43,908 nt of DNA from Candidatus Beckwithbacteria bacterium (GTDB taxonomy: Bacteria; Patescibacteriota; Microgenomatia; UBA1400; CG1-02-47-37), in NCBI GenBank assembly GCA_026397255.1, contig JAPLVF010000001.1, positions 1 through 43,908 on the forward strand. The letters run 5' to 3'. Under the pieces are notes generated by a model, which was not told where the DNA came from, searched no databases, and was given only the letters and a program-made list of their open reading frames with translations. Made by a program: the position numbers and the translations under genes. This document shows, piece by piece, positions 1,527 to 22,976 of the stretch. Positions within the stretch are counted from its first letter, which is position 1, and the number at the start of each line of letters is the position of its first letter.

Positions 1527-1814
1527 TTACTGGGTTAAGCTAGCAATTTGGTTGTATGACTGCCAAGATAAAGAAATAGAGGGTTTGGGTTGATTTGACA
1601 ACACGAGAGTTTGGTTTGCGGGTACGAAAATAGGGGAAAATGGGGCAAAATTGGGCAGAATTACGTTAAGGTCGGACCTTTTGCCTGTCGATTTCATTCC
1701 CGGAGTGTGAACTTCTTTCACTCCGGGAATGTTTTGCGGGTTTCCTGTTAGGGAGCGACCCTTTTTTACGTAATTTATTCGGGTAAAGAATTTAAGATTT
1801 TTTATTGTTTTCAT
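1527..1814 (-). CDS. Doubtful 95-aa ORF carrying a composite palindrome
   Basis: This open frame lies 8 nt upstream of the surface-protein start. About a third of it is encoded by palindromic repeats (peptides GRSL, NIPGVKEVHTPGM, KRSDLN). Its last residues (SYNQIASLTQ) resemble the linker between the two halves of a recombinase core-binding domain (compare ENIQAEHLTP in the gene at 2344). I think it is more likely the remnant of the middle of a longer ancestral gene than an independent protein. No Shine-Dalgarno sequence is visible. Confidence 0.25.
   Translation of the reverse strand: MKTIKNLKFFTRINYVKKGRSLTGNPQNIPGVKEVHTPGMKSTGKRSDLNVILPNFAPFSPIFVPANQTLVLSNQPKPSISLSWQSYNQIASLTQ
1668..1762. 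repeat. Composite repeat: family B palindromes flanking a family A hairpin
   Basis: AAGGTCGGACCTT (1668-1680) and the related AGGGAGCGACCCT (1750-1762) flank the family A hairpin at 1695-1731, with gaps of 14 and 18 nt. The nested symmetry suggests that one element inserted into a pair of the other, as in composite REP (BIME) structures. Confidence 0.7.
1695..1731 (-). repeat. Family A 37-nt hairpin, copy 1
   Basis: A 13-nt arm CATTCCCGGAGTG pairs perfectly with CACTCCGGGAATG around an 11-nt loop, which reads AAAGAAGTTCA on the minus strand. It is read in the surrounding ORF as IPGVKEVHTPGM. Three further copies lie at 2680, 13973 and 14123. Confidence 0.85.
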
Positions 1815-1837
1815 GCGTGTAAAGTTTATGATATTTT

Positions 1838-2344
1838 TTAATTTGACGGTCGTTTATTTTGATTGTTATCTGTTAATTGATGATTTTTCTCTGCCCAGGA
1901 TAGGTATTGATTGAGGTCAGAGAGGTAGTTTTTGATGGTGGAGTTTGATAAATTTTCGTGTTTTAAAAAATCAGCATAATGATGAACAATTTGTTCTAAG
2001 GTGATGGTGGTTGGCAGGCCTGCCTACGCAGGCAGGGGGGTGAGTGATTTAGTCGGGTCGGCGGTGAGGCGGTTGGTGTTCACTAAAAATTCGCCAAAGC
2101 GGCGCAGGGAAGAAAGGTGACGCTGGGCAGTGGTGGGGTGAACATTCTGCGTTAAATGTTTTTGGTAGGTTTTAACTATGGTCGGGGTAAGGTGTTCGGC
2201 CTGGATGTTTTCTTCCTGGAGGGTGCGGGAAACCCAGTTTAAAAACAAGTTAATGTCGGAAACGTAATTTTTGGTGGAAGCGCTGCCAATTTTTTTGTCA
2301 GCGGTTAAGTATTTTTTGAAATAATTGAGCAGGGCTTGGGACAT
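1838..2344 (-). pseudogene. Tandem tyrosine-recombinase core-binding domains, split by an in-frame stop in a palindrome
   Basis: The first 106 codons (2344 to 2024) encode a complete SAM-like core-binding domain of the XerC/XerD type: ALLNYFKKYLTADKKIGSAS, then TKNYVSDINLFLNWV, then TTAQRHLSSLRRFGEFLVN. There is no catalytic R/H/R/Y domain. A TAG at 2026-2024 lies inside a family D palindrome. The same frame then continues without shift as ITLEQIVHHYADFLKHENLS and STIKNYLSDLNQYLSWAEKN, the first half of a second such domain, to TAA at 1838. In the intact palindrome of the PaaX gene the corresponding codon is CAG (peptide LPAQAG), so the stop is one C-to-T change. Function unknown; presumably DNA- or protein-binding rather than recombination. 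It may be expressed as a 106-aa protein. Confidence 0.6.
2019..2036. repeat. Family D palindrome with nonsense change
   Basis: CCTGCCTACGCAGGCAGG is an imperfect palindrome of the family best seen at 3397-3416. Read on the minus strand it contains the TAG that interrupts the core-binding-domain gene. Confidence 0.8.
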
Positions 2345-2420
2345 GGTTAATTTATTGGCGTATTGGTAATTTGTCTGTTTGTATAGTTCTGCTTTGCCGG
2401 CCCGCCTAGATCTGCCTTGC

Positions 2421-2441
2421 CCTGCCTCGCCGGCAGGCAGG
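2421..2441. repeat. Family D palindrome, intergenic copy
   Basis: CCTGCCT and AGGCAGG arms surround CGCCGGC. It lies in the 217-nt gap between two minus-strand genes; no convincing gene occupies that gap (an 80-aa frame there is made of repeat sequence). Confidence 0.7.
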
Positions 2442-2511
2442 CGGCAGGCAGGCGTGAGACTGGTCCCTCTAGACGCGAGGCTGGGAAGTAAGTTGACGGT
2501 TGGTTATGGTG

Positions 2512-2555
2512 GTTGGGCATGGTTGTGGTTATAGTTGTTGGGTATGGTTGTGGTT
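2512..2555. repeat. 25-bp-period direct repeat, TGG-rich
   Basis: GTTGGGCATGGTTGTGGTT at 2512-2530 recurs with one mismatch at 2537-2555. The surrounding 2490-2560 is low-complexity TGG-rich sequence. Confidence 0.6.
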
Positions 2556-2561
2556 GGCTGG

Positions 2562-2750
2562 TTAGAGGGTAGGAATAACAAACATCCAAACCGCAATCGC
2601 CGCAAATAAACTTAAGACCGTGGCGACTTCGGCAATGGATTTAAAAATAGGCTTGCGGAAAATTTTTGACAAAGAAATCCACCCCGGGGTGAAAGAAGTC
2701 ACCACCCCGGGGTGACATTCTGGGTAAGCGAGAGAGAGGCTAGCAGGCAT
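2562..2750 (-). CDS. 62-aa single-pass membrane protein with hairpin-encoded segment
   Basis: This small protein starts with a good Shine-Dalgarno (AGGAG, 6 to 7 nt before the ATG at 2750). The C-terminal half (SIAEVATVLSLFAAIAVWMF) is a predicted membrane helix ending the protein at VIPTL. Residues about 13-25 (CHPGVVTSFTPGW) are encoded by a family A hairpin read in the opposite orientation to the other copies. The ribosome-binding site and the clean helix make it a likely real gene despite its size. I do not recognise a family. Confidence 0.55.
   Translation of the reverse strand: MPASLSLAYPECHPGVVTSFTPGWISLSKIFRKPIFKSIAEVATVLSLFAAIAVWMFVIPTL
2680..2714 (+). repeat. Family A hairpin, copy 2
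   Basis: CACCCCGGGGTG at 2680-2691 and again at 2703-2714 are separated by AAAGAAGTCAC. The loop keeps the family sequence while the stem has changed to CCCCGGGG. It lies in the 62-aa membrane-protein gene, antisense to the gene. Confidence 0.85.
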
Positions 2751-2892
2751 AGATTTCTCCTTTTTTGTTTCTTGAGTGATTAGACTTAATTACACAAGAT
2801 TATATTTATTAAACATATCTATAATAATAAGAAAAAGCTGAGAGTGGCAAGTACTAAAAAAATTACTAATTTAACAGAGAAAAATGAGGAAA

Positions 2893-2913
2893 GATTAACG
2901 ATTAACGATTAAC
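2893..2913. repeat. Tandem heptamer GATTAAC x3
   Basis: Three perfect copies of GATTAAC lie in the AT-rich intergenic stretch 2751-3134. Together with the 14-bp repeats at 3001 and the promoter at 3042, this is all I can see in that 380-nt gap. Confidence 0.7.
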
Positions 2914-3000
2914 GATGATTTCACACGGTTTTCATAGTAGTTTTTTATCTATATCATAATATTGCTTTGATATCTATTGACTATCATTTATTCTATTTAT

Positions 3001-3031
3001 CAGAAATCGGAAATCAGAAATCGGAAATCAG
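3001..3031. repeat. Tandem 14-mer x2.2
   Basis: CAGAAATCGGAAAT is repeated twice, followed by CAG, just upstream of the PaaX-like gene's promoter. Confidence 0.75.
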
Positions 3032-3041
3032 CAGAATGTCA

Positions 3042-3096
3042 TTGACAAACTAACTACTGTAGTGTTACTCTATGATTAATTAACAATTAACACTAC
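3042..3096 (+). promoter_or_regulatory. Promoter and candidate operator of the PaaX-like gene
   Basis: A consensus -35 TTGACA (3042-3047) is followed at 17-18 bp by TTACTC/TACTCT (3065-3071). The spacer holds the perfect dyad ACTACTGTAGT (3053-3063). GTAGTGTTA (3059-3067) is repeated inverted as TAACACTAC (3088-3096). Three half-sites of the type CACTAC/GTAGTG around the -10 region suggest autoregulation by the downstream PaaX-family protein (inference). Confidence 0.5.
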
Positions 3097-3134
3097 ATTC
3101 TCAACTGCATCAAAATAGATTAAGTGTGGATAAG

Positions 3135-3869
3135 ATGAAATTACTTAAGAGAAAACTGTTGTTTTGTTTGAAATTTGAGAAAGATTCGGAGTATAAGCCG
3201 TACAATTTTTTTTATTACCGTTTATCCGAGTATGCTCAGGGTTCGGTCAGGGATGCGGCGGTACGCCTGGAGAAAGCCGGTTTTTTAGACAAAATAATCA
3301 GGAATAACCAATCATTTTTTAGGTTAACCTCAATGGGAAGAGAGCGATTTAAGAGAGAAGGCGGGTCTTGGGATAAGATTTGGAGAGTGGTGGTTTGCCT
3401 GCCTGCGCAGGCAGGCGACCACAATCGCTTAGGCGGGCAGTTAACGGCTTTAGGCTATAAGAGATTATCCCGGGGAGTGTTTATCAGCCCTTTTGGGGTG
3501 ACTGAAGCGACAAAACAACTGTTTTTGCAGCAAAATTGGCAGAATTCAGGCCTGGTTATGGAAACAAAACGGTTGGTTGTGGGTGATAACCGGCAGTTGG
3601 TTAGGCGGTTATGGAACCTAGATGAGTTAGGCCAGAAATACAGTGATTTTGTCAATTTTGCTTCCCGACTGCTAAAATTAGGGCGTCAAAATTTTGCTTT
3701 GTTGCGACAAGCCAAAGGTGGCTTCAAAACTTGCCTCGATAGTTATTTTAGCCTGTTTTTGGCTGATCCGGGACTGCCAAAGGCCTTATGGCTTGATGAT
3801 TGGCAGCAGGAAGAAGCCAAAGGATTGTTTGGGCGCTTATCGGTTTTGGCAAAAACCGCAGGGATTTAG
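3135..3869 (+). CDS. PaaX-family transcriptional regulator with palindrome insertion
   Basis: This 244-aa protein matches the PaaX layout: an N-terminal winged-helix region (residues 1-75, with RDAAVRLEKAGFLDKI and FFRLTSMGRERF), a Cas2-like ferredoxin-fold domain (WDKIWRVVV, then GYKRLSRGVFISP, about 79-120) and the C-terminal segment containing LADPGLPKALWLDDWQ. Residues 88-95 (CLPAQAGD) are encoded by the perfect 20-nt palindrome at 3397 and lie in the Cas2-like domain, after the first strand, where relatives have a FDIPEDKR-type loop. The second copy in this window (16959) keeps that normal loop. ATG at 3135 is preferred over GTG at 3126 because GGA lies 6 nt before it. The family represses transcription in known members; the target here is unknown, but its own promoter has a candidate operator. 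Confidence 0.75.
   Translation: MKLLKRKLLFCLKFEKDSEYKPYNFFYYRLSEYAQGSVRDAAVRLEKAGFLDKIIRNNQSFFRLTSMGRERFKREGGSWDKIWRVVVCLPAQAGDHNRLGGQLTALGYKRLSRGVFISPFGVTEATKQLFLQQNWQNSGLVMETKRLVVGDNRQLVRRLWNLDELGQKYSDFVNFASRLLKLGRQNFALLRQAKGGFKTCLDSYFSLFLADPGLPKALWLDDWQQEEAKGLFGRLSVLAKTAGI
3397..3416. repeat. Family D palindrome, perfect 20-mer
   Basis: GCCTGCCTGCGCAGGCAGGC is fully self-complementary. It is translated in the PaaX-like gene as part of CLPAQAGD. Confidence 0.9.
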
Positions 3870-3873
3870 GGAA

Positions 3874-4863
3874 TTAAGATTGATTTTGTTTGATATTGTT
3901 AGATTGAGTCTTTAAACGGCGTTTTAAGACAATGATTCTCAAGTGAAGAGCAAGAATGTACATAATTAATAAAACTATAATTATCCATATCAAGGGAGAA
4001 CAAGCGAGCAAAATGGGAAAAGCGGTTAAGGCTTGGGGAAATTGGAGGATTGGCTGAGGGAGGCCCGGGAGGGTGATAGTTGGTAGGGGGGAAGGTAAAG
4101 CAATAATGATTCTGGCCGGGGCAGTGATTTTAAGAGTAAATGAAGGGAGGGTAGTGGTGTTGCCGGCAACATCAGTGGCGTTGGCAAAAACAGTGTAGCT
4201 TCCCGGGGCCAAAGGTGTTTTTGGCTGGACAGAGAAAGTTTTATCAGTGCCAACAGAGGCAGCGAGAGGAATGGAGTTGGTCGGGGTGATCAAGTTAAGG
4301 CTGATTTGAGCGCCGGACTCAGATTGGCCGGAAATGATTGGTTGGGATTGGGTAGTGGTAAAGGTTAAACCAGGAGGAATGGTGGTCAGATCATAAGAGG
4401 ATAAGCTGGTTGTCTGGCCGGCGATCCGGTCAATCAGGATTAAAGGCGCTGTGGTATCAATGGTAAAGCTCCAAGTGGCAGAGTTGCGGTTAACACCATT
4501 ATTGCCAATGGCAGTAATAGTCCAGGTGTGTTGGCCTTCGCTAAGAGCCTGGAGAGCATTTACCATAATGGTGTTGGTGGATTGGGGAATATTGTTGGTG
4601 TTAATGCCTCCGTCAATTAAAAGCTGATAATGGTCAACATAAACTTGTCCCCAGGAAGGATTAAAGATAAAAGTCGGGGCGGTGGTGCTGATAGTAGAGT
4701 TATTGGTCGGAGAAATTAAGACAGGCGTGTCCGGTTCGGGGTGGGTGAATTCCGGCACCGTGGCGGTGACGGTGGCATTGTTATCGAAAGATATTACTGG
4801 TGTAGAGTTGAATATAACTGTTATAAAAATTATAACCGCTATAATGAGAAGTTTTTTGGGCAT
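3874..4863 (-). CDS. Secreted Ig-like-domain protein with C-terminal membrane anchor
   Basis: This 329-aa protein starts with an N-terminal signal sequence (KKLLIIAVIIFITVIF). Two beta-sandwich-like regions follow: about 45-135 with TPVLISPTNNSTISTTAPTF and GQHTWTITAIGNNG, and about 140-248 with SGQSESGAQISLNL and PGSYTVFANATDVAGN, both typical of bacterial Ig-like/FN3 extracellular modules. A Pro-rich stretch leads to a membrane helix (WIIIVLLIMYILAL, about 290-305) and a basic tail, so most of the protein is outside the cell. It is convergent with the PaaX-like gene (4-nt gap) and divergent from the toxin-antitoxin pair. Its start lies 7 nt after a TATACT box (4876-4871), suggesting a leaderless message. 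Precise role unknown. Confidence 0.75.
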   Translation of the reverse strand: MPKKLLIIAVIIFITVIFNSTPVISFDNNATVTATVPEFTHPEPDTPVLISPTNNSTISTTAPTFIFNPSWGQVYVDHYQLLIDGGINTNNIPQSTNTIMVNALQALSEGQHTWTITAIGNNGVNRNSATWSFTIDTTAPLILIDRIAGQTTSLSSYDLTTIPPGLTFTTTQSQPIISGQSESGAQISLNLITPTNSIPLAASVGTDKTFSVQPKTPLAPGSYTVFANATDVAGNTTTLPSFTLKITAPARIIIALPSPLPTITLPGLPQPILQFPQALTAFPILLACSPLIWIIIVLLIMYILALHLRIIVLKRRLKTQSNNIKQNQS

Positions 4864-4870
4864 TAAAACT

Positions 4871-4909
4871 AGTATAGCTTATTTGAGCTAAATTTGGTAA
4901 AATACAGAT
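4871..4909. promoter_or_regulatory. Divergent, apparently leaderless promoters
   Basis: On the minus strand TATACT (4876-4871) lies 7 nt before the ATG at 4863. On the plus strand TAAAAT (4898-4903) lies 6 nt before the ATG at 4910. The -35 boxes are weak. Either transcript would start at or next to its start codon. Confidence 0.45.
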
Positions 4910-5206
4910 ATGGTTAATCAGTTGCCGAAGCGGTTGGCCAAGTACTTTTGGGATGTAAATCTAAATCAGTTAAATCCACTTGAGGATGCCGATTTTTTGA
5001 TTAAAAGAATTTTGGAAAGAGGTGAAACTCAGGACATTTTTTGGTTAAAACGACAGTTTGGATTGGAGAAAATTGCAGTGTCGTTGAAAAAATACCGCGA
5101 TTTTTCTCGGAAAACAGGCCTTTTTTGGACATTATTATTAAATTTGAATCAAAGCGAGGTGCCATGTTTGCAAACACCTTATCGCCGGATACGTTACGGG
5201 GTATAA
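4910..5206 (+). CDS. DUF6922-like putative antitoxin
   Basis: This 98-aa protein opens with LPKRLAKYFWDVNLNQLNP, then RILERGETQDIFWLKRQFG, the pattern of the DUF6922 proteins that precede AbiEii-type nucleotidyltransferase toxins. Its end overlaps the next gene by 43 nt in another frame, implying translational coupling. The family match and the pairing are from memory of these families; antitoxin activity is inferred from position. Translation probably starts on a leaderless transcript. Confidence 0.65.
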   Translation: MVNQLPKRLAKYFWDVNLNQLNPLEDADFLIKRILERGETQDIFWLKRQFGLEKIAVSLKKYRDFSRKTGLFWTLLLNLNQSEVPCLQTPYRRIRYGV

Positions 5207-5796
5207 AATTAATTGGCCAGGGAAAATGGCTGGATTTTGCTTATTTGGCCGGTGGCACGGCTTTAGCTTTACGTTTGGGTCATCGCCAGTCGGTTGATCT
5301 GGATTTTTTTACACCCAAGAAATTTGACGAGCAGGTAATTTTGATGCAGTTGAAACAAACCGGTAGGTTTGAATCAAAAACGGTTGCCTGGAGAACGGTG
5401 ATAGGTGATTTTTTTAAGGTTTCTTTCAGTTTGTTTTATTACGAATATTCGGTTTTAGATAAAACCGACGATTTTTTTGGCATAAAAATTGCCAGTTTGA
5501 AAGATATTGCGGCGATGAAAATTCATGCGATTGAAGACAGAGGCTCAAAGCGCGATTTTGTGGATTTATTTTTTCTGACGAAAACTTTTTCTTTAAGAGA
5601 AATGCTGAATTTTTATGGACAAAAATATCATTGTTTAGAGAAACATAAGCTTTTTATTCTTAAAGGCATGAATTATTTCGAAGATGCTGAATCGGAAAAA
5701 ATGCGGCCGATGTTTAAAGAGGTGGATTGGGACAAACTCAAGCAATATTTTCAGAATCAGGTTAAGCAGTTAGCTAAAGAGTGGGGGATTCTTTGA
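5164..5796 (+). CDS. AbiEii/AbiGii-type nucleotidyltransferase toxin
   Basis: This 210-aa protein shows the nucleotidyltransferase signature YLAGGTALALRLGHRQSVDL followed by DFF: GGT at residues 30-32 and the metal-binding DxD at D45 and D47. A later conserved segment, IASLKDIAAMKIHAIEDRGS and KRDFVDLFFL, is typical of the AbiEii/DUF1814 family. Known members act as toxins of type IV-like toxin-antitoxin systems, some by transferring nucleotides onto tRNA 3' ends. Start choice: ATG at 5164 has GAGGT 5 nt upstream; the frame is open further upstream to 5041, but that part overlaps the antitoxin and does not look like the family. The 3' end overlaps the convergent gene by 23 nt. Confidence 0.8.
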   Translation: MFANTLSPDTLRGIKLIGQGKWLDFAYLAGGTALALRLGHRQSVDLDFFTPKKFDEQVILMQLKQTGRFESKTVAWRTVIGDFFKVSFSLFYYEYSVLDKTDDFFGIKIASLKDIAAMKIHAIEDRGSKRDFVDLFFLTKTFSLREMLNFYGQKYHCLEKHKLFILKGMNYFEDAESEKMRPMFKEVDWDKLKQYFQNQVKQLAKEWGIL

Positions 5797-6271
5797 GGAT
5801 TAATTCTAAGATTTGAGGAGGGATTGTTTGTCGATATAATTCAAAACGGTCTTTGGCGTTAATGAGTTTAGCGGTTAGGGCGGCATGATTCATAAACAAC
5901 TGAATCATGGCTGAACCGTATGGGTAGAGGTCATGAGGAGCTTGTTCACTAATAGCGATTAACCAATTATTTTCTTGAGTGATATCTGGTAAGCTGAAAC
6001 CTTTGGTTTCTAGGCTTGCGGATAAGAATTTTAAGCCAACCGCGGCTGGAGTAAGACATTGAGGGGCGCCGTTAGTGATCACTGCGATTTGGGTGTCTCC
6101 AAAGGTAATTTCTTGAGGAGAAATGGTGATGTTTTCCTGTGCGGCAATTTCTGCCCAATTAAGCCTACCGTCAGCAAGCCGTTGATTTCTGGCTTCGGTT
6201 AAAAGCTCAACAAGATCGTAACGGCCGTTAGAATTTCTTAGACTACCAGGAAGATTTTCAATATTAAACAT
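5774..6271 (-). CDS. Hypothetical protein, 165 aa
   Basis: I do not recognise a family. The protein is soluble-looking, with no signal or membrane segment. It begins MFNIENLPGSLRNSNGRYDL and contains the acidic/aromatic stretch QENNWLIAISEQAPHDLYPY and a C-terminal helical part ending ELILKESPTL. It has its own strong promoter inside the 3' end of the upstream DUF916-like gene, so it is likely expressed independently of that operon. Confidence 0.65.
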   Translation of the reverse strand: MFNIENLPGSLRNSNGRYDLVELLTEARNQRLADGRLNWAEIAAQENITISPQEITFGDTQIAVITNGAPQCLTPAAVGLKFLSASLETKGFSLPDITQENNWLIAISEQAPHDLYPYGSAMIQLFMNHAALTAKLINAKDRFELYRQTIPPQILELILKESPTL

Positions 6272-6279
6272 ATTATGGG

Positions 6280-6308
6280 ATAATATCCTTAACTGGCTAT
6301 GATGTCAA
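6280..6308 (-). promoter_or_regulatory. Consensus promoter giving a leaderless transcript
   Basis: On the minus strand TTGACA (6308-6303), a 17-bp spacer and TATTAT (6285-6280) are followed after 8 nt by the ATG at 6271. This is the clearest sigma70-type promoter in the window and puts the expected transcription start at or next to the start codon. Confidence 0.7.
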
Positions 6309-7273
6309 GCCGTGGCGATCGGAGTCGTTTCCGGGGGTTGCTTCTTTCTGGTTTTAAGAACAATCAGGAGAATGATGGCAATCAGGATAACGGCCGCGGC
6401 GGCCAATTCTTTAACCGGCACAATCCAGAAGTAAATCAAACCATTGATGGGAAGTTGGGAGGAGCCGGCAGTGGCGTTCAGGCGGGCGGCATAGCGGCCC
6501 AAGTGCCATTTGCCGGGAAAAGAAAAATTGTACAGGCGGGAGGCAAAAGGAAAGATGTTTTTAGCTTCTAATTCTTCGGAGAAAACAACCTGATTGAGAA
6601 GATTACTAACGGTTAAACGGCCTTTGGGTTGGAGATGGATGTCGCCCAAATTTTCAATTTCTGCCAAAATAGCGGTCGGGCCGTAAGATTTAAAGGTTTT
6701 GTCAACAGTGAAAGTTTTTAGATTAGCGGCTTCAGTGACATCGCCGACAACATTAAGATAGATTAAACTGCCGACTTTTTGGATAATAGTACTGCCGGAA
6801 TTCTGAACACCGATTAAGCCTTCAGTATTGGGACTGTAGGTAATCATGGCATAGTGGCCGCCGGGCAAAGCATTTTTCGGCAGAGAAATTACCAGATCAA
6901 TGGTACTGGTTTGCTGGGGTTGTAAGAGAATTTTTTTCGGTGAGGCGGTAATCCACGAAGCTAAACTCCAACGGTTGGAAACAGTTTCGACGATGGCTAT
7001 GGGTGTGCCTTGGTTGTCATTAACAATAAAATCATTAGCGGAAACATCAAAGGCCATTTCAGTCGTGGATTCGTTGCGGATTTTAATCGTTTCCTGGAGA
7101 GTGGCGCCGGGCAGGGCGGATAGTTCCAGGCGGGGAGGAATAGCGGTAATGGTAATGGCGTTAGGGGCAGGGGTCACGATTGGAGCCGGAGTAGGGGTCG
7201 GGGCGGGAGATTCTTGGCCATAAACCAGAGAAGCAGATAATAAGAGGAAGAAGATGGGCAGGAATTTTTTCAT
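6305..7273 (-). CDS. DUF916-like secreted protein with C-terminal anchor
   Basis: This 322-aa protein has a signal peptide (MKKFLPIFFLLLSASLVYG), a Pro/Thr linker, and a beta-sandwich region with the pattern PPRLELSALPGATLQETIKI, then RNEST, seen in DUF916 (WxL-interacting-protein peptidoglycan-binding domain) and related proteins. A second domain (about 180-275) includes AILAEIENLGDIHLQPKGRL. A membrane helix (AAAAVILIAIILLIVL) and a basic tail close it. It is the last gene of a five-gene minus-strand operon, 3 nt after the preceding stop. I infer an extracellular, membrane-tethered partner of the adjacent secreted surface protein, as in Gram-positive WxL loci. Confidence 0.7.
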   Translation of the reverse strand: MKKFLPIFFLLLSASLVYGQESPAPTPTPAPIVTPAPNAITITAIPPRLELSALPGATLQETIKIRNESTTEMAFDVSANDFIVNDNQGTPIAIVETVSNRWSLASWITASPKKILLQPQQTSTIDLVISLPKNALPGGHYAMITYSPNTEGLIGVQNSGSTIIQKVGSLIYLNVVGDVTEAANLKTFTVDKTFKSYGPTAILAEIENLGDIHLQPKGRLTVSNLLNQVVFSEELEAKNIFPFASRLYNFSFPGKWHLGRYAARLNATAGSSQLPINGLIYFWIVPVKELAAAAVILIAIILLIVLKTRKKQPPETTPIATA

Positions 7274-7276
7274 AGG

Positions 7277-8648
7277 TTAAAAAGTGGCGGTGGCCGTGTA
7301 AGTAATATTGTTTTCATAATCACCGGCGGCTTGAGTGGCGCCGATACTTAAGCGGTAACAAGTGTAAAGATCGCCGGCATCAACTACAGTGGAGCCGGTA
7401 TTAAAGATTTCCGTGGCCGCGCCGGAGTGGGCCAGATTGGCAAAGTCCCGGGCGCAGTAAGTGCCGACACTGCAGTTGCCACTGATAACGTTATAGGCAA
7501 AAGCTTCGGTGACATTAGCGCCGCCGATCGGTGACAGAGGCGGTCATAGTGAAAGGGGTATCGCCGGTGGCATCAGGAATAAGCGGAGCGGTTGCGCCAT
7601 CTTTACCTAAGTGGTCGTTTTCCGTGGCAGTGACGACGCCGCCGCCGGCGGCATTAGTGGACAGAGTCAGTTTTTGGGCCAGGTTTTTAAAAATATTTAA
7701 AGCCATAGTGCCAAAAGGAACCGTGGTGGCGGTGCTGGCGACATCAGCGGGTAGACCGCAGGCGGTAGTGCCGACGCCGACACTGCTAATAGTAAAGGTG
7801 ATGGTTGGTTCAACGGTGGCGGTGACCCGGACAGATTCAACCACAGCGATTTTAATGTTGGTAGAGTCAACGACTCGAAAGAGATTAGCGGGAGAATCAA
7901 GGTGTTCGACGATAACTGTATAGCCATCAGATAAGCCTTCAGTGGCGTTGGCTTTAGCCGGGTTAATCAGGTCGTTGGCGCCGGCATTACCAATGACAAA
8001 AGTAAAAGTGCCGGAGTTACTATTAACGCCTTTATATTGGGTTTCAAAACAATGATAGCCGGCAGCGCAGCCGGTACCGCCGGAAGCGGTGGCGGTAGCC
8101 GCGGTCCAAGAGTCAACGCCGCCGCCGGTCGGAGCGGTTAGTTGAGCGGCGCCAATTGCGTTAAAATCAAAACCGTCATGGTTGGGGATACCGTCGTTAA
8201 CGCCGTTAGCGCCGGAAGGAATTAAAATCCGAAAGCCGCCGCCGTTAATTTTGGTAGCCGGGGTAAAGGTAACGGTGTGTTTGGCCGAGCGGGTGGCGAT
8301 GACCAAATCATCGGCAGCGGCATCATTAGCTTCCAGGCCGCTGGTAATTGTGAATTCATCAGTGTCAATAATATCGTCAACCGTGTAGGAGGTGGCGCTA
8401 GTGCCGATGCCGATCATGACCGTGTCGCCAGTGAAAAGATTAGCGGTAGACTTGGAAGGCATGCCGGAAGTGGCCACTTGAATTGAAGTAACGCCGGTAG
8501 CGTGGAGGACTGCCAGTTTATTGTAATAAGACAGGCGGGAAGTGGTGAGGGTGTCGGCGACAGAGGTAAGGTTAGCTGATTTTAATTGTTGGGGAAAGGT
8601 AAATGCTAAAATTCCGGCAATGGTTAAGCCGGCTAAAATCTTTTTCAT
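7277..8648 (-). CDS. Secreted surface protein, frameshifted near its C-terminus
   Basis: A signal peptide (MKKILAGLTIAGILAFTFP) leads a Thr/Ala/Gly-rich, Lys-poor beta-rich extracellular protein. The frame from 8648 hits TAA at 7515 after TASVTDRRR. One frame over, from about 7525, the sequence continues as GGANVTEAFAYNVISGNC through SIGATQAAGDYENNITYTA to TAA at 7277. That ending is clearly homologous to the end of the neighbouring gene at 9596 (SIGASQAAGDYTNSIIFTA), so the true gene is the whole interval with a one-base gain or two-base loss around 7523-7529. It could be a sequencing error, a real mutation or phase variation. It overlaps the upstream gene by 4 nt. Confidence 0.7.
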
Positions 8649-9592
8649 TTAGATTCATTATGATGTTTTAATTTATTCTTTGTCAATAGTAAGATTGCGC
8701 TGAGAATAAACACAGCCAGTAAAATTTTATAAGGGAGAACATAAAAGGTTAATGTTTGGGAAATAGTGTTAGTGGTGTCTTTGGGGGTGATTGAGGCCTT
8801 AGCAGTAAAACGGCCGAAAATTAAAGAAGGGACGTTAGTTTCCGGTTGCAGTTGGCGGCTGGAATTGGCTAAAACATTGTCTTCGCGCAAAGGAATGGTG
8901 GCCGAGACGCCGCCGAAAATGTTTTTAATCTCGATTTGGCCGACGGCTTTTAAGCGGGTGGAGGAAGTATTTTGTAAAAGCAGTTGGAAGCTGATCGGTT
9001 CAAAGGAATCATAGATTAGTTTGGCGGAAAACTGGGCAATTTTAGCCAGCGGGCTTAATTGGCCGGTCCGGCTGACGGTTAAAAGAATGTTGGAACCGAT
9101 CGAGGCGAGAGTGGTAGTGCCAGAGCCGGAAATCAGACCCTGGGCGGTGGATTCAAATAAAAAGGCGACGGGGTAATCGGCTTCAATGGCGCTGGCAGGG
9201 AGAGAGATTTTTAAAACCAGCTCCTGAGTTTGGCCGGACTTAAGCGGGAAAGTAGCCGGCAGTTCAGGTAAGTTGGCGTTTTGGAGACTGAAAAAATCAG
9301 GAATAGGATCTGATTTTTTTAAGGTAATGCGGCCGAGTTCGTCGGCCGGTTCGAAGGGGACAATCGAAGCTTTAATAATGACATCGTCACCGAGGTTTTG
9401 CAGTTTATAAACTTGGGTGATGGCTTTGCCCGGTTGGATAACCGCTTCCAAAATCGGCGGCCAAATAGAAAGGGAAAGTGTTTGGGCGGTCGCCGTTTTC
9501 GGCCGAATTATAACGTTTATAAAAATTATAAATATTATAAAAGTTATAGATGTTATTTTATTAATACGGCCGTTGATTTTATTTATTGCCAT
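8645..9592 (-). CDS. DUF916-like membrane-anchored extracellular protein
   Basis: This 315-aa protein has a hydrophobic signal sequence (ITFIIFIIFINVII). A first beta domain starts SIWPPILEAVIQPGKAITQV and has the LQNLGDDVIIKA motif; a second includes QLLLQNTSSTRLKAVGQIEI. A C-terminal membrane helix (YKILLAVFILSAILLL) ends it. The architecture equals that of the gene at 6305, its likely paralogue. It sits between two secreted proteins that share a C-terminal motif, so the operon holds two partner pairs in alternating order. Role as an anchoring partner is inferred. Confidence 0.7.
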   Translation of the reverse strand: MAINKINGRINKITSITFIIFIIFINVIIRPKTATAQTLSLSIWPPILEAVIQPGKAITQVYKLQNLGDDVIIKASIVPFEPADELGRITLKKSDPIPDFFSLQNANLPELPATFPLKSGQTQELVLKISLPASAIEADYPVAFLFESTAQGLISGSGTTTLASIGSNILLTVSRTGQLSPLAKIAQFSAKLIYDSFEPISFQLLLQNTSSTRLKAVGQIEIKNIFGGVSATIPLREDNVLANSSRQLQPETNVPSLIFGRFTAKASITPKDTTNTISQTLTFYVLPYKILLAVFILSAILLLTKNKLKHHNESK

Positions 9593-9595
9593 ATT

Positions 9596-10342
9596 TTAGT
9601 AAGTGGGAATAGCGGTAAAAATAATGGAATTGGTATAGTCGCCGGCGGCTTGGCTGGCGCCGATACTGGCTTGGTAAGTGACGGTGGCGACCCGGCTTTT
9701 ACCAACATTGGGGGAGGACATGACGATTTCGGGAATTTCTCCGCTTGAGGCATCGCTAAATTGTTTGAAAAACTGTTTGAAAAGCGGCGCCGGCCCGGTA
9801 AATTCAGCCGGCACGTCATTGCCGGACATATGATAGCCAAAACCGTATTTGGTGGGATCATCCCAATCATCGGCGGTAGTTTCACTGCAACTACTATTGC
9901 AGAGAGTGTCGGGAATATTGGTCGGAGTGCTTTTTAGCTGGAGCGGGTGATTTTCGTAAGCATTAACACAATAGCCACCGGCGCCGCCGAAAGAAACAGT
10001 TAAAGTATTGGTTGGCGGAGGACTGGGAAAAACATTGGGGATAAGTGTTCCGAAATTTATTGACAACTTAGAAATAGTGAAGTTGAAAGGAATAATGGTT
10101 TTAATATAAGGAAAGCCAGCCTTAACGTAAAAGCCGGTGGAAGCATATTCGCCCGGGGCGTTTTGGCCGACCGTGTCCAAGATATTATAGTTGGTGGAGG
10201 ATTTTGAGCCGGAGGTCATGTTTAAATTGGGAAACTTAAGTTTGTAAGAAGAAGATTCCATGCGGTCAACCGCCCCCGCTTTCGCCGGGGCTATAAAAAT
10301 TATAAAAATTATAAAAATTATAACCCTTAGAGTTTTATTCAT
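9596..10342 (-). CDS. Secreted surface protein with QAAGDY-type C-terminal domain
   Basis: The 248-aa protein has a signal sequence (VIIFIIFIIFIAPAKAGA) whose end is encoded by a palindrome (family E). The segment YKLKFPNLNMTSGSKSSTNY and GQNAPGEYASTGFYVKAGFP is a pattern I associate with secreted proteins of these bacteria. Four cysteines (YCVNAYE, then TLCNSSCSE) could form disulfides. The C-terminus TYQASIGASQAAGDYTNSII matches the end of the protein encoded at 7277-8648. Exported surface component; binding target unknown. Confidence 0.65.
   Translation of the reverse strand: MNKTLRVIIFIIFIIFIAPAKAGAVDRMESSSYKLKFPNLNMTSGSKSSTNYNILDTVGQNAPGEYASTGFYVKAGFPYIKTIIPFNFTISKLSINFGTLIPNVFPSPPPTNTLTVSFGGAGGYCVNAYENHPLQLKSTPTNIPDTLCNSSCSETTADDWDDPTKYGFGYHMSGNDVPAEFTGPAPLFKQFFKQFSDASSGEIPEIVMSSPNVGKSRVATVTYQASIGASQAAGDYTNSIIFTAIPTY
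10273..10290. repeat. Family E palindrome in a signal peptide
   Basis: CCCCCGC and GCCGGGG arms flank TTTC. On the coding strand it encodes APAKAGA, the residues around the expected signal peptidase site of the protein starting at 10342. Confidence 0.75.
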
Positions 10343-11036
10343 TGAGTTTTTCCACTATTTCTTTCAGTTCTTGGCCGGATTTAAACAATTCTTTCAGATC
10401 CTGATAGAGGGTGTTAAGTTTTTCCTTCTGATGATAGGGGAGGCGGGAAAGGTTGCTGTTGATTTGGGAAAGCAGGTCGATAGTTTGATGCATTTTGTTA
10501 TGGAAGTTTAAAGAAAGCCAGAGTAAGGTGGCTTCTTCCTGGGCAGAGACATTCTTTTTTAGGTGTTCGGATTGATTTGACAAGACGTTAATCTGTTTCT
10601 GGGCGGTTAGCAGTTTTAAGTATTGATTGCCAATAAAGCGGGCAACCGGGGCCATTAATAAGAGGGAAATAAGATTGGCTAGCTGGGTAGTGTCTAAAAC
10701 TGTGGAATTTAGCAGAAATAATAGTGTGAGTGCTAAAGATAAGATAAAACCGAGACTGGGGAAGATTAATAGGCTTAGAGTAAAAAGGAGGAAGTCGAGC
10801 AGGAAGAATAAAGGGGAAACCAGGCTGCCGGTCTCCAAAATGAGCAAAAGGACGATTAAAGTGATGATGATCGAGTTTATTATATTTTGATACTTTATGA
10901 CTAACTTGTTGAGGACAACAAAGAGGAGAAATAAGCCGGCGATTAATTGCAGAGATAGAGGAGAAAGGGAAGGATTATTGTGCCAAAAAAAACTTAAGAC
11001 AGCGCTAGCGGTTAACAAGACTGTAGGCAGGAACAT
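10335..11036 (-). CDS. Polytopic membrane protein with C-terminal coiled coil
   Basis: This 233-aa protein has about six hydrophobic segments in its first 150 residues (for example LIAGLFLLFVVLNKLVI, IIITLIVLLLILETG, FILSLALTLLFLL). A cytoplasmic helical tail follows (KQINVLSNQSEHLKKNVSAQ, then LNFHNKMHQTIDLLSQINSN). The arrangement resembles a 6-7TM sensor with a histidine-kinase-like dimerisation helix but no ATPase domain, so I do not call it a kinase. It is the first gene of the minus-strand surface-protein operon and overlaps the next gene by 8 nt, suggesting a linked role in sensing or assembly (inference). Confidence 0.6.
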   Translation of the reverse strand: MFLPTVLLTASAVLSFFWHNNPSLSPLSLQLIAGLFLLFVVLNKLVIKYQNIINSIIITLIVLLLILETGSLVSPLFFLLDFLLFTLSLLIFPSLGFILSLALTLLFLLNSTVLDTTQLANLISLLLMAPVARFIGNQYLKLLTAQKQINVLSNQSEHLKKNVSAQEEATLLWLSLNFHNKMHQTIDLLSQINSNLSRLPYHQKEKLNTLYQDLKELFKSGQELKEIVEKLNE

Positions 11037-11064
11037 ATTATTAATATTAATTTACAGGTTTTCA

Positions 11065-11095
11065 TTGACAAAAGCAAGGTGATTTATGTTAAACT
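11065..11095 (+). promoter_or_regulatory. Promoter, probably leaderless
   Basis: TTGACA (11065-11070) is followed by TAAACT (11090-11095) at 19 bp, or TTAAAC at 18 bp. The ATG at 11106 follows 10 nt later with no Shine-Dalgarno sequence. The divergent gene at 11036 has an A/T-rich TAATAT 7 nt before its ATG. Confidence 0.5.
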
Positions 11096-11105
11096 GAATT
11101 TATCT

Positions 11106-11528
11106 ATGAAAGCAGATAAAACATGGTGGGGATTAGCTTTGGTAGGTATTTTAGTGGCCGGTTACGTGGTGACCGATACCTTGACTTTTGCTTTTAAAAC
11201 ATTGACTAGACCGGCTGCGCCGATAGCCGAAGTGGTGGAAAAATCGGAGCCGGCGGCAGTTTTAGGGGAAGAAACAGTGAATTTGTCCAGCTATCAGGCG
11301 GTGCATTTAACCAATGGCCAGATTTATTTTGGCCAGTTGTCGGACGAAGGTAACCAGTTTGCTAACCTAAAAAAGGTTTATTATTACCAGAAATCGGGGG
11401 AAGAGTGGCAGTTGACGGCCTTAAGCGACGAGTTGAAGATTAACCGGGACCACATCTTATATTTTGAGCCGTTAAAAGCGGATTCGGACACAGTCAAGGC
11501 GATTGAGAGCTACGAACAAGGGCAGTAA
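11106..11528 (+). CDS. Conserved-looking membrane-anchored hypothetical protein
   Basis: This 140-aa protein has an N-terminal membrane anchor (WWGLALVGILVAGYVV), a Pro/Ala/Glu linker, and an extracellular domain (about 65-135) with AVHLTNGQIYFGQLSDEGNQ, then NLKKVYYYQK and LKINRDHILYFEPLKADS. I associate this YFGxL...VYYxQ...HILYFExL pattern with a widespread uncharacterised family in Patescibacteria; function unknown. I chose ATG 11106 over the upstream frame at 11079 because the promoter's -10 box lies within that extension. Confidence 0.65.
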   Translation: MKADKTWWGLALVGILVAGYVVTDTLTFAFKTLTRPAAPIAEVVEKSEPAAVLGEETVNLSSYQAVHLTNGQIYFGQLSDEGNQFANLKKVYYYQKSGEEWQLTALSDELKINRDHILYFEPLKADSDTVKAIESYEQGQ

Positions 11529-11584
11529 AAAGCCTGGCAAAAAGAAGAAATTTTTGTTAAACTTCCAGCAGGGAGCATTTTTTT

Positions 11585-12028
11585 ATGAAAGCGAATATTA
11601 TTTTTTGCGAACAACAAAGAGGCATTGGCGGAGAAAAAATGGGTCAAGGAGGAAGTGAAACAGAAAAAATCGTTTATAATAAAACCTGGGATTTACCCTA
11701 TAATTCAGCAATAGAGATTCCGGAATTAGCTGTTTGGGGAATTCGGGCTTTACTTTTACGGCCCCGTTCTCAGGCGATTGGTTTAATTGTTGCTAAGCCG
11801 GGGATATTTTCTGAATTAATGCAAGGATATAAATTATTGTCTCAAGGTATTGCTAAGCCCGGGGTAAAGGCTAGAAATCAGTTGATTCCGATAAAAGAGC
11901 CTAAGAAAAACTGGAAATTAACAAAGGGAAATGAGATGCCCCACGTTTTTTTTGATGGAAATAGGTCTCAGGGGGTGATAATTACCGGCCCGAATCATAA
12001 ATTAACAATTACTTTTGACGAAAACTGA
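11585..12028 (+). CDS. Hypothetical protein, 147 aa
   Basis: No recognised family and no membrane segment. ATG 11585 has GGGAG about 9 nt upstream. An internal ATG at 11639 has GGAG at 5-6 nt and would give 129 aa (MGQGGSETEKIVYNK), perhaps the true start. The coding sequence contains a direct repeat, TTGCTAAGCCGGGG at 11790 and a near copy at 11850, read as VAKPGI and IAKPGV. It ends 4 nt before the leuS start, so it is probably co-transcribed with it. Confidence 0.55.
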   Translation: MKANIIFCEQQRGIGGEKMGQGGSETEKIVYNKTWDLPYNSAIEIPELAVWGIRALLLRPRSQAIGLIVAKPGIFSELMQGYKLLSQGIAKPGVKARNQLIPIKEPKKNWKLTKGNEMPHVFFDGNRSQGVIITGPNHKLTITFDEN

Positions 12029-12032
12029 AGAT

Positions 12033-14495
12033 ATGAATTTTGATCATCAGAAAATCGAGGAAAAGTGGCGGAAAAAGTGGCGGGAGACAGGGATTTATAG
12101 GACTAATTTATCCATTCGACAAGCTCAGGACAAAAAAAAGTGGTACAACCTAATGATGTTTCCGTACCCGTCGGCCGAAGGCTTGCATGTCGGTAACATG
12201 TATGCGTTTACCGGGGCGGATTGTTACGGCCGGTTTAAGGCGATGCAGGGATACGAGGTATTTGAGCCGATTGGGTTGGACGGGTTCGGAATCCACTCGG
12301 AAAATTACGCGATTAAAATCGGCAAACACCCAGCCGATCAGGCCAAAATCAGTGAAAAACATTTTTATGAGCAGTTAAGCCGGATTGGCAACCGTTTTAA
12401 CTGGGATAACCGTTTGGAAACTTACGATCCGGAATATTACCGCTGGACTCAGTGGCTGTTTGTACAAATGTTCAAGCACGGCTTGGCATACCGGAAAAAA
12501 GCTCAGGTTAACTGGTGTCCGTCCTGTAAAACCGTCTTAGCCGATGAGCAGGTGATTGATGGTAAGTGTGAAAGGTGCAGTACGGCAGTCGGGAAGCGGG
12601 AGAACGAACAGTGGTTTTTTAAGATTACAGAGTACGCGCAGAGATTATTGGATAATATTGAAAAAATTGATTGGCCGGAAAAGATTAAAATCAGCCAGAG
12701 AAATTGGATTGGTCGTAGCGAGGGCGTAGAGATTATTTGGAAAATGACAAGGTTCGACCTTGTCATCAGCACTTTTACTACCAGGCCGGACACGATTTAC
12801 GGGGCAACATTTTTAGTTTTAGCGCCGGAGCTGGCGTTGGTGAATAAATTGAAATTAAATAAAGCAGCAAAGGAGTATGTGGCGAAAGCGTTATTAAAAA
12901 CCGAACAGCAACGGAAGTTGGAAGAAAAGAAAAAAACCGGTGTCGATACTGGTTATCAAGTGGTCCATCCTTTGACGGGAAAGCCGATTCCTGTCTGGAT
13001 TGCCGATTTTGTGCTGAAAGACTACGGTACGGGTGCGGTAATGGGGGTGCCGGCGCATGATGAAAGAGACAACGATTTTGCTAAAGAACATCAATTACCG
13101 GTGATAGATATTTTGAAAGATAAAGAGGAGATAATTAGGAAATTAGAGAAAAAAGGTTTGGTAAAAAGAACGGTAAATTTTCATTTAAGGGATTGGTGTA
13201 TTTCCAGGCAAAGATATTGGGGGCCGCCGATTCCGATGATTTATTGTGAAGAGTGTGCTAAAAGAAACACTCCGGAGAGTAAAAATATTCCACTCCGGAG
13301 TGGAATGGCTGGCTGGTATCCGGAAAAAGAGGAGAATTTGCCGGTTAAACTGCCGTATGTCCAAGATTTTAAGCCGACCGGAGACGGGAGAGCGCCTTTG
13401 GCTAAGGCCCCACGGGGGTGGTTAGAAACAGTTTGTCCTGGTTGCGGAGGGAAAGCAAAGAGAGAAATAGATGTGTCTGATACGTTTTTAGATAGTGCCT
13501 GGTATTTTTTGAGGTATCCTTCGGTTTCCAATAAGGAGACTCCTCGTAGGAAGCCTACGAGGAGTCTCCTTGCAGGTACTGACGAGCTTCGTTTGCCTTT
13601 TGATCCGGAAATTACGAAAAACTGGTTGCCGGTAGATGCGTATATTGGTGGAGCCGAGCATGCGGTCCTACATTTGCTTTATTCGAGATTTGTCTGGATG
13701 GCGCTCTCGGATTGGGGCTATATCCCTAAAGCCCTAGGCCCTGAGCCCTTCCCATTCCTGTACGGCCACGGTTTGATTATCAGAAACGGCGCCAAGATGA
13801 GCAAAAGCCGGGGCAATATTGTCAACCCGGACGAATATATTGATAAGTTCGGGGCGGATGCTTTAAGAATGTATTTGATGTTTATCGGGCCGTATGATCA
13901 GGGCGGGGATTTTAAAGATACGGGGATAGTGGGGATGAAGCGGTTTTTGAATCGGGTGTGGAATCTGTGTTCCACTCCCGGTGTGAAAGATGTCCACACA
14001 CCGGGAGTGTTATTGCTGCGACACAAAACCGTTAAAAAACTGACCGAGGCAATGGAGAATTTTCGGTTTAATGTGGGAATTGCCAATATTATGGAGTATG
14101 TTAATGGGCTGGAGAAATATTTCACTCCCGGAGTGAAAGAAGTCTCCACTCCGGGAGTGGATTCGATTAAAACTTTAATTTTGTTGCTGGCGCCGTTCGC
14201 GCCGTATATTAGTGAAGAACTATGGGGGAAAATCGGCGGAAAATTCAGCGTCCATCAGCAACTTTATCCTAAATACGAGGAAAAATTGACGAAAAATGAG
14301 ACAGTTACGGTGGTGGTGCAGGTAAATGGCAAGTTGCGGGGAAGACTAGAATTGGGAGCAGAAGAGGGGAAAAATAAAGAAAAAGTATTAACTTTAGCCA
14401 AAGCCGATGAGCATATAAAACAGTATCTTAAAGATAAAAAAATTGTTAAAGAAATTTTTGTTCCCGGGAAACTGGTGAATTTGGTGGTAAAATAA
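12033..14495 (+). CDS. leuS: Leucyl-tRNA synthetase with six palindrome-encoded insertions
   Basis: This 820-aa class I synthetase charges tRNA-Leu. The HIGH motif is HVGN at residues 52-55 (YPSAEGLHVGNM), KMSKS is at 588-592, and the editing domain has TTRPDTIYGATF and DYGTGAVMGVPAHDERD. Two Cys pairs (CPSCK, CERC) lie in the first zinc-like module and CPGCGG in a later one. Six stretches are encoded by hairpin repeats and look inserted relative to usual sequences: SIRQAQDK, MTRFDLVIS, NTPESKNIPLRSG, KETPRRKPTRSLL, STPGVKDVHTPGV and FTPGVKEVSTPGV. All keep the reading frame, and the signature motifs remain intact, so the enzyme is expected to be active. ATG 12033 fits the usual N-terminus (FDHQKIEEKWRKKW) better than the upstream start at 12015. 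Confidence 0.95.
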   Translation: MNFDHQKIEEKWRKKWRETGIYRTNLSIRQAQDKKKWYNLMMFPYPSAEGLHVGNMYAFTGADCYGRFKAMQGYEVFEPIGLDGFGIHSENYAIKIGKHPADQAKISEKHFYEQLSRIGNRFNWDNRLETYDPEYYRWTQWLFVQMFKHGLAYRKKAQVNWCPSCKTVLADEQVIDGKCERCSTAVGKRENEQWFFKITEYAQRLLDNIEKIDWPEKIKISQRNWIGRSEGVEIIWKMTRFDLVISTFTTRPDTIYGATFLVLAPELALVNKLKLNKAAKEYVAKALLKTEQQRKLEEKKKTGVDTGYQVVHPLTGKPIPVWIADFVLKDYGTGAVMGVPAHDERDNDFAKEHQLPVIDILKDKEEIIRKLEKKGLVKRTVNFHLRDWCISRQRYWGPPIPMIYCEECAKRNTPESKNIPLRSGMAGWYPEKEENLPVKLPYVQDFKPTGDGRAPLAKAPRGWLETVCPGCGGKAKREIDVSDTFLDSAWYFLRYPSVSNKETPRRKPTRSLLAGTDELRLPFDPEITKNWLPVDAYIGGAEHAVLHLLYSRFVWMALSDWGYIPKALGPEPFPFLYGHGLIIRNGAKMSKSRGNIVNPDEYIDKFGADALRMYLMFIGPYDQGGDFKDTGIVGMKRFLNRVWNLCSTPGVKDVHTPGVLLLRHKTVKKLTEAMENFRFNVGIANIMEYVNGLEKYFTPGVKEVSTPGVDSIKTLILLLAPFAPYISEELWGKIGGKFSVHQQLYPKYEEKLTKNETVTVVVQVNGKLRGRLELGAEEGKNKEKVLTLAKADEHIKQYLKDKKIVKEIFVPGKLVNLVVK
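12115..12131. repeat. Family C repeat in leuS
   Basis: TTCGACAAGCTCAGGAC encodes part of SIRQAQDK near the synthetase N-terminus. A related sequence (TTCGACTCCGCTCAGGAC) lies in comEA at 14661. Confidence 0.65.
12744..12766. repeat. Family B-like palindrome in leuS editing domain
   Basis: Ten-base arms ATGACAAGGT and ACCTTGTCAT pair perfectly around TCG. It encodes MTRFDLVI just before the STFTTRPDT motif of the editing domain. Confidence 0.85.
13268..13306. repeat. Palindrome pair in leuS (A-like)
   Basis: CACTCCGGAG occurs at 13268 and 13291. The second copy is part of the perfect 20-mer ATTCCACTCCGGAGTGGAAT (13287-13306). It encodes NTPESKNIPLRSG between two conserved parts of the synthetase. 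Confidence 0.8.
13533..13571. repeat. Family H hairpin in leuS
   Basis: An 18-bp perfect stem (AAGGAGACTCCTCGTAGG and its complement) closes on the 3-nt loop AAG. The 39 nt add 13 codons between the RYPSVSN and LPFDPEI segments of the synthetase. A 36-nt relative lies in argS. Confidence 0.9.
13973..14009 (+). repeat. Family A hairpin, copy 3 (leuS)
   Basis: Arms CACTCCCGGTGTG and CACACCGGGAGTG (13 bp, perfect) flank loop AAAGATGTCCA. It encodes STPGVKDVHTPGV. Confidence 0.9.
14123..14159 (+). repeat. Family A hairpin, copy 4 (leuS)
   Basis: Arms CACTCCCGGAGTG and CACTCCGGGAGTG (13 bp, perfect) flank loop AAAGAAGTCTC. It encodes FTPGVKEVSTPGV, 38 codons after copy 3. Confidence 0.9.
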
Positions 14496-22618: not shown

Positions 22619-22976
22619 TCGTAATGAGTTTAGTCGGCTTTAAGAATTTAAAACCATGGCCGCCACAGAACTGCAACAAACAGTCGCCGGGGTTAAGAAT
22701 GTGTTTTACAAAGGTCCGTCCTTTGTAAAAGAAAGTGGCCTCAATTTGGCCGGAAACCAGATAAATAAACTCCTGATTTTTATGAGTGGTTTTGGCCAGG
22801 CGTCGGTGTTGGTGGGGTTTAACTTGGCGGCCTTTAGGGTAGAAGTTAACTCCCAGCTGTAAAGGGTTATCTGGTTTGGTTAAGAACTGGTGGGGTTTGG
22901 CTTTAAAGTTAGCTTTAATGATAAGAGCTAGGGTGGTTTTTCCGAACTTGATGTTAATTAAATTGTTAGGCATCAT
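22569..22976 (-). CDS. Small cupin-domain protein
   Basis: This 135-aa single-cupin protein has the metal-site-like PHQHRRLAKTTHKNQEFIYL, followed by VSGQIEATFF and NPGDCLLQFCGGHGFKFL. Relatives in glycan clusters are sugar-nucleotide or polysaccharide-modifying cupins, but the substrate cannot be told. The segment YKGRTFVKH between two strands is encoded by a family B palindrome (compare YKGPSFVN in ComEA). It overlaps the upstream gene by 11 nt. Confidence 0.65.
   Translation of the reverse strand: MMPNNLINIKFGKTTLALIIKANFKAKPHQFLTKPDNPLQLGVNFYPKGRQVKPHQHRRLAKTTHKNQEFIYLVSGQIEATFFYKGRTFVKHILNPGDCLLQFCGGHGFKFLKPTKLITIKQGPYSDRQHEKIEI
22704..22730. repeat. Family B palindrome in cupin gene
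   Basis: The core ACAAAGGTCCGTCCTTTGT (22708-22726) is identical to the copy next to the transposase. It is extended by TTTT and AAAA to a 27-nt near-perfect inverted repeat. Confidence 0.9.

Follow-up and report, generated by a model that had tools for sequence, protein, structure and literature searches.

A REPIN-like hairpin element within genes of Patescibacteria, probably mobilised by RAYT transposases

Introduction

A window of 43,908 nucleotides (nt), the whole stretch of DNA that was analysed, forms positions 1 to 43,908 of contig JAPLVF010000001.1 from a Candidatus Beckwithbacteria genome (assembly GCA_026397255.1) and carries four copies of a 37-nt hairpin, here termed family A, two of them inside a leucyl-tRNA synthetase (LeuRS) gene. 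This raises the question of what kind of element can change both arms of its stem together and also be read as part of a protein. A first-pass annotation of the window had considered that the folded form is either under selection or copied as a structure, and had been reminded of the Rickettsia palindromic elements (RPEs). Family A is likely to be a non-autonomous, REPIN-like miniature element that occurs in Patescibacteria, chiefly in Microgenomates, and is probably mobilised by REP-associated tyrosine transposases (RAYTs). REPINs are inverted doublets of repetitive extragenic palindromic (REP) sequences with compensatory changes (PMC3116915, Bertels and Rainey 2011), TnpA-REP proteins can cleave and join REP hairpins in vitro when these are single-stranded (PMC8266576, Corneloup 2021), and REPs and REP dimers are sometimes found in frame within genes (PMC3733652).

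Hairpins of the Window and Anatomy of the Element

All four hairpins that had been claimed (at 1695, 2680, 13973 and 14123) are present. A degenerate pattern with at most three mismatches recovered three of them and matched nowhere in 100 shuffled versions of the window, so that they are not chance matches, and the hairpin at 1695 was recovered via a covariance model. The proposed architecture was borne out as two 13-nt arms enclosing an 11-nt loop, with two corrections: the stem of the copy at 2680 measures 11 base pairs (bp), and the loop consensus is AAAGAWGTY plus two variable bases (AAAGAAGTT in the copy at 1695, AAAGATGTC in that at 13973). As single-stranded DNA the hairpins fold with -13.7 to -15.4 kcal/mol, corresponding to z-scores of -4.5 to -7.5 against shuffles. 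They and their host gene lie as follows, the open reading frame (ORF) lengths being given in amino acids (aa):

1695..1731, minus strand: family A hairpin, copy 1 (CATTCCCGGAGTG-AAAGAAGTTCA-CACTCCGGGAATG), overlapping a 108-aa ORF
2679..2715, plus strand: family A hairpin, copy 2 (CCACCCCGGGGTG-AAAGAAGTCAC-CACCCCGGGGTGA), stem of 11 bp
12033..14495, plus strand: leuS, leucyl-tRNA synthetase, hosting two certain family A copies and two more in-frame inserts
13267..13303, minus strand: weak family A-like hairpin in leuS (E 0.2 alone); the protein segment RNTPESKNIPLRSG is an insertion in the protein alignment
13973..14009, plus strand: family A hairpin, copy 3, in frame in leuS (STPGVKDVHTPGV); the corresponding LeuRS loop of a complete Beckwithbacteria genome (G002) is also filled
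14123..14159, plus strand: family A hairpin, copy 4, in frame in leuS (FTPGVKEVSTPGV); the corresponding loop of G002 is again filled

An in-frame reading had been claimed for all four copies and is certain for copies 3 and 4, within LeuRS. The ORFs over the other two, the 108-aa ORF and a 75-aa ORF (HPGVVTSFTPGW) within which copy 2 falls on the minus strand, are putative; a Pfam search of both matched no family. The segment RNTPESKNIPLRSG is missing from most relatives in the protein alignment, and the underlying hairpin is probably a decayed family A-like copy. A second leucyl-tRNA synthetase gene of the same genome (G000:C8:7380-9647, L307) has 42% identity to the leuS of the window and is without its inserts.

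The genome of the window (G000, 895 kb, Beckwithbacteria family of the Patescibacteria) contains nine strong and two weaker copies, as judged by the covariance model search that the first-pass annotation had suggested, with a model built from seven own-genome copies. The same search matched 12 of 89 genomes (the own genome and relatives), most copies belonging to the same family and the others to other families of the order. An exact pattern in which the paired variable positions were left free, scanned over 84,980 species, gave 54 stretches, nearly all in Microgenomates (Curtiss-, Levy-, Beckwith-, Woese-, Gottesman- and Roizmanbacteria) and also in one Berkelbacteria genome and three metagenome-assembled genomes (MAGs) of Omnitrophota; the matches are confined to Patescibacteria, including some MAGs titled only 'bacterium', and Omnitrophota. 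The final collection comprises 105 family A copies, 97 of them distinct, from 32 genomes that belong almost exclusively to Microgenomates, with 1-15 copies per genome. Similar hairpins of Omnitrophota MAGs (L147, L160, L164, L177, L185, L197) lie mostly outside long ORFs, and one such MAG genome (G092) gave no match to a Y1 transposase. Most of the copies collected from G002 cluster within G002:C1:137293-248060, about 110 kb of 1.05 Mb.

A single arm is usually itself palindromic around an odd centre base (CACnYC-C-GRnGTG on the left, CACnYC-G-GRnGTG on the right), so that the whole element can be written as a REP, 11 nt and an inverted REP. The loop measures 11 nt in 71 of the 97 distinct copies, and the arms fall into the palindrome subtypes CACTCC, CACACC, CACCTC, CACCCC and AACTCC. 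Perfect matching between the two arms is seen in 17 copies in spite of a non-palindromic single arm (e.g. CACTCCCGGTGTG in leuS), and the reverse is seen in only three, which identifies the long hairpin as the better conserved unit. Three copies (L051:1064-1120, L064:2420-2476 and L065:2464-2520) carry a CCTGCCTGCGCAGGCAGG-type palindrome inside the loop, which suggests nested insertion of another family; a GC-rich repeat of the CCTGCCTGCGCAGGCAGG type also occurs at 2014-2035 and at about 2400-2455 of the window.

Covariation of the Arms

The claim that the arms covary was upheld within the genome and beyond. In the alignment of seven own-genome copies, 5 of 13 pairs have changed on both sides and 97.8% of cells pair, compared with 86% after shuffling, and 97.2% of the 1261 inter-arm pairs of the 97 distinct copies are Watson-Crick. 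Since a covariance model prefers paired arms, the unbiased test used pattern matches obtained without a pairing requirement: among 40 distinct Patescibacteria sequences, complementarity is found at 155 of the 160 free positions, where shuffling gives 78.7 ± 8.1 (maximum 106 in 5000 shuffles), such shuffle tests of covariation leaving the shared ancestry of the copies in place. The compensatory stem changes that had been described are real in that the arms change together; they reflect mainly palindrome subtypes, several of them identical to a RAYT-flanking palindrome, rather than slow base-by-base compensation. Just outside the 13-bp arms pairing drops to the shuffled level, which delimits the element to 37 nt.

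Compensatory changes in a stable stem would also be expected if a folded RNA, such as a terminator or an RNase or regulatory hairpin, were under selection. In the distinct copies, however, G:T mismatches (11) are as rare as A:C mismatches (9), which places the constraint on DNA and not on RNA, and most copies lie within long ORFs in both orientations. An Rfam search matched no curated RNA family. A role as RNA was rejected on the mismatch balance and the Rfam result, and we regard it as very improbable; of the two options offered by the first-pass annotation, copying as a structure is the one retained.

RAYT-Like Transposases and Their Palindromes

The own genome encodes six RAYT-type Y1 (IS200-like) HUH transposases, in which the HuH motif and the conserved tyrosine are seen, and each gene has a private short palindrome on both sides. 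A profile of the RAYTs matches chains of the PDB at E 0.003, which we take to be ISDra2 TnpA, and a sequence-only PDB search with the RAYT of the window alone as query gave no match. Two of the private palindromes correspond to arms of family A: the palindrome of L010 is ATCACACACCCGGTGTGTGAT, whose core CACACCCGGTGTG is the exact arm of own-genome copies at C2, C12 and C14, and that of L011 is CATTCCACTCCGGAGTGGAATG (CACTCCGGAGTG), which equals the CACTCC arm seen in the window copies once its centre base is left out. In a further genome, G093 (Patescibacteria OS_PC_MetaG.mb.184), the RAYT gene L224 has a complete hairpin on either side.

The association with RAYTs, a check proposed along with the first description of the hairpins, holds across genomes. 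A Y1 transposase is present in 12 of 12 element-bearing genomes and in 31 of 77 others (Fisher p 6e-5), a contrast that, like the other tests of association between elements and RAYTs, is inflated by shared genome lineage; of 21 genomes from the pattern scan, 20 likewise have one. In a RAYT tree of 110 rows, all 19 RAYTs with a family A-type (strict CAC-type) palindrome fall into one clade of 52 rows and none into the other half (P 8e-8), and with a looser palindrome label, given to 35 RAYTs, both halves are occupied and 22 changes are counted against 30 when shuffled. The arm of the element is identical to a RAYT-flanking palindrome of the same genome in 6 of 28 genomes, where 1.5 are expected (p 0.0003); among these is G018 with an unusual AACTCC form (AACTCCCGGAGTT) that is unique to it among the collected elements. 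The movement of in-frame palindromic elements, RPEs among them, has long lacked a clear explanation. With family A, identifiable transposase genes adjoin the palindromes, so that a purified protein and an oligonucleotide would suffice to test the link.

At the RAYT loci L120, L130, L126 and L231 a GACACCTCGG-like sequence comes after the upstream palindrome and is repeated in inverted orientation beyond the end of the gene; in L126, L130 and L231 the sequence after the upstream palindrome is TTGACACC, which resembles a -35 promoter element.

Residence Inside Genes

Family A is found largely within protein-coding genes. Of the 15 copies in the complete genome G002, 14 are situated in ORFs that match a Pfam family and the remaining one in an unassigned ORF of 426 aa; in the own genome 8 of 11 copies are in Pfam-matched ORFs, hosted by LeuRS (twice), YifB, DprA, TsaD, two GT4 glycosyltransferases and a MerR-type protein. 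According to Pfam, the hosts in other genomes include topoisomerase I, ribonucleotide reductase, RadA, Obg, LepA, AspRS, UvrD, ClpC, RecJ and MgsA. Of the 72 copies in ORFs of at least 190 aa, 54 are co-oriented with the gene (p 2.6e-5) and 35 are read as a TPGVKxxxTPGV-like peptide, and the frame that usually runs into TGA is almost unused (three copies).

The preference for one orientation and one frame, together with the filling of the same protein loops in different genera, would also be accounted for by an RPE-like in-frame element shaped mainly by selection on the protein, a modular unit of two TPGV turns around a variable segment whose hairpin is a by-product of the repeated peptide. 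A repeated peptide, however, predicts direct repeats with freedom at the codon level, not perfect inverted complementarity. Moreover, the element is also read in other frames and from the opposite strand, so that the peptides at one and the same GT4 or Obg loop are unrelated, some copies are apparently intergenic, and palindromes of the same type flank RAYT genes. Selection on the peptide as the main cause therefore appears quite unlikely.

Occupation of the Same Protein Loops

G000 and G002 both carry the element at sites 1 and 2 of LeuRS and in the YifB linker, where it is absent from other relatives; the identical site is filled in at least two genomes in TsaC-TsaE, Obg, ribonucleotide reductase, topoisomerase I, TsaD and the GT4 loop. 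The shared sites differ in their reading, in that the Obg copies are in opposite orientations and the GT4 copies in different frames. Two further LeuRS loops of the window genome hold other palindromic inserts, and the inserts of relatives at these positions differ in sequence. Independent arrival in tolerant loops explains the shared occupation best, replacement in place being a possible alternative.

The copies, of which those at the LeuRS and YifB sites are common to G000 and G002, could instead be old, vertically inherited insertions in which gene conversion, or template switching from one arm to the other, has maintained the likeness of the arms, the RAYTs having no present part; the 17 copies with matched but non-palindromic arms indeed look as if one arm had templated the other. 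Against this stand the differences in orientation and frame at the Obg and GT4 sites. In addition, in most of 10 comparisons of homologous sites the copy is less similar to its partner than to some copy at another position of its genome, a likeness that, as a best-of-many set against a single partner, is only suggestive as a sign against inheritance in place. Vertical inheritance of this kind is thus an unlikely explanation.

Proposed Mechanism and Weight of the Evidence

The attribution of family A to RAYT-driven movement draws on its structure, its covariation, the link between palindrome type and RAYT clade and its residence in frame. When one strand becomes single-stranded, e.g. as the template of the lagging strand, the element would fold into its 13-bp hairpin, which a RAYT of the CAC clade is predicted to recognise, cut and join elsewhere via single-stranded DNA. 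As both arms would move together, the palindrome subtype of the source would be carried along. Arrivals in frame in tolerant surface loops may survive because the 12-codon reading TPGVKxxxTPGV is free of stops, and selection would retain those copies that leave the protein working. Binding, cutting and movement by RAYTs, the strand involved and the neutrality of the protein insert are inferred here from the described systems together with the present data.

Several observations, besides the effect of lineage on the association tests, weigh against this explanation. A matching RAYT palindrome was not found in exact form in 22 of the 28 genomes, where the RAYTs have possibly been lost, left unassembled or undetected, or have a wider range of recognition, and the test that allows one mismatch between arm and palindrome is weak (9 against 5.6 expected, p 0.047). 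A GTAG tag, sought at the foot of the palindrome, is present as GTAG or CTAC in 1 of 97 copies, with 4.5 expected by chance; the flanks of the copies likewise contain no conserved tetranucleotide. In G093, the genome of the clearest RAYT link, most copies are outside long ORFs, and 37 nt is not divisible by three, which leaves the retention of the frame without explanation. No transposition event was seen in the genomes compared: a comparison of inserted lengths with the congeners G001 and G003 was ambiguous and yielded no clean empty site, the GT4 loop having diverged and the MerR-type gene of G003 carrying an apparent half element.

A broader proposal, which we put forward tentatively and hold to be possible rather than probable, is that family A represents a RAYT-driven class of mobile elements adapted to residence within proteins, in which stop-free, turn-forming hairpins have settled again and again in the same surface loops of essential proteins of streamlined genomes, each transposase evolves its own palindrome and several unrelated palindrome families share the loops. 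The very small, streamlined genomes of Patescibacteria carry several parallel REP/RAYT pairs and tolerate the lengthening of essential proteins, which is relevant to annotation, to structural modelling and to the study of how proteins gain insertions.

Relation to Known Systems

Family A shares with the REPIN/RAYT system the inverted REP doublet that forms a hairpin, the compensatory changes between its halves (PMC3116915, PMC8266576), and palindromes that adjoin a single-copy HUH transposase gene and whose type tracks the transposase group. It differs from REPINs in lacking the GTAG tag, in its 11-nt loop (REPIN spacers are longer), in its 1-15 collected copies per genome compared with hundreds, in being mostly intragenic where REPINs are mainly extragenic, and in its occurrence in Patescibacteria, where a single genome of about 1 Mb can hold several RAYTs, each with a palindrome of its own. 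The intragenic GTAG and CGTC REPs of Opitutus terrae, Rickettsia conorii and Xanthomonas recB are, like family A, in-frame REPs or dimers in conserved genes, with hosts that include repair proteins and tRNA synthetases and one site common to two species, but they form the minority of a mainly intergenic population and have sequences unlike those of the GTAG-less family A (PMC3733652). From insertion sequences (IS) of the IS200/IS605 group and their miniature inverted-repeat transposable elements, with which the Y1 HUH transposase and palindromic ends are shared, it is set apart by the absence of a multi-copy IS, each RAYT of a genome being a different gene with its own palindrome.

The resemblance to RPEs that had been pointed out is likewise confirmed, as is the difference in sequence, to which differences in size and host are added: both are palindromic and read in frame in unrelated genes with a shared peptide or one preferred peptide frame, but RPEs are about 100-150 bp long, those reviewed in PMC10969869 being rickettsial and about 150 bp. 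The pattern scan of 84,980 species gave no match in Rickettsiales, the RPE sequences themselves having been left unaligned. To our knowledge, no RAYT link has been described for RPE-1. Given the missing GTAG tag, the low copy number and the intragenic habit on one side and a size and host unlike those of RPEs on the other, we file family A as a variant of the REPIN/RAYT kind that functions like REPINs and RPEs and belongs to neither described family. In the open-access literature no report of palindromic elements or RAYTs in Patescibacteria was found.

Other Palindromes and Repeats of the Window

The RAYT gene of the window is a parallel case to family A, since its flanking palindromes form a family of their own, family B:

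19211..19235, no strand assigned: family B palindrome, downstream of the RAYT gene
19242..19913, minus strand: RAYT-like HUH (Y1) transposase gene
19924..19948, no strand assigned: family B palindrome, upstream of the RAYT gene (TTTACGAAGGACGGACCTTTGTAAA)

Besides these two positions, family B (TTTACAAAGGTCCGTCCTTTGTAAA) occurs at 14917-14941 and 22705-22729, and it too is read in frame, as IYKGPSFVN in a ComEA-like HHH/SLBB protein and as FYKGRTFVK in a cupin-like one. A third palindrome family, C, lies at 13526-13577 and 37839-37887, in frame in leuS (TPRRKPTRSLLAG) and argS (LQGDSSQVCEESPYC), and resembles the palindromes of the RAYTs L007 and L008 (ACCTACAGGG...CCTTGTAGGT). Finally, TATAAAAAT repeats with a period of nine bases at 9509-9558 and 10292-10332 are read as IIFIIF-like runs near the N-termini of predicted secreted proteins.

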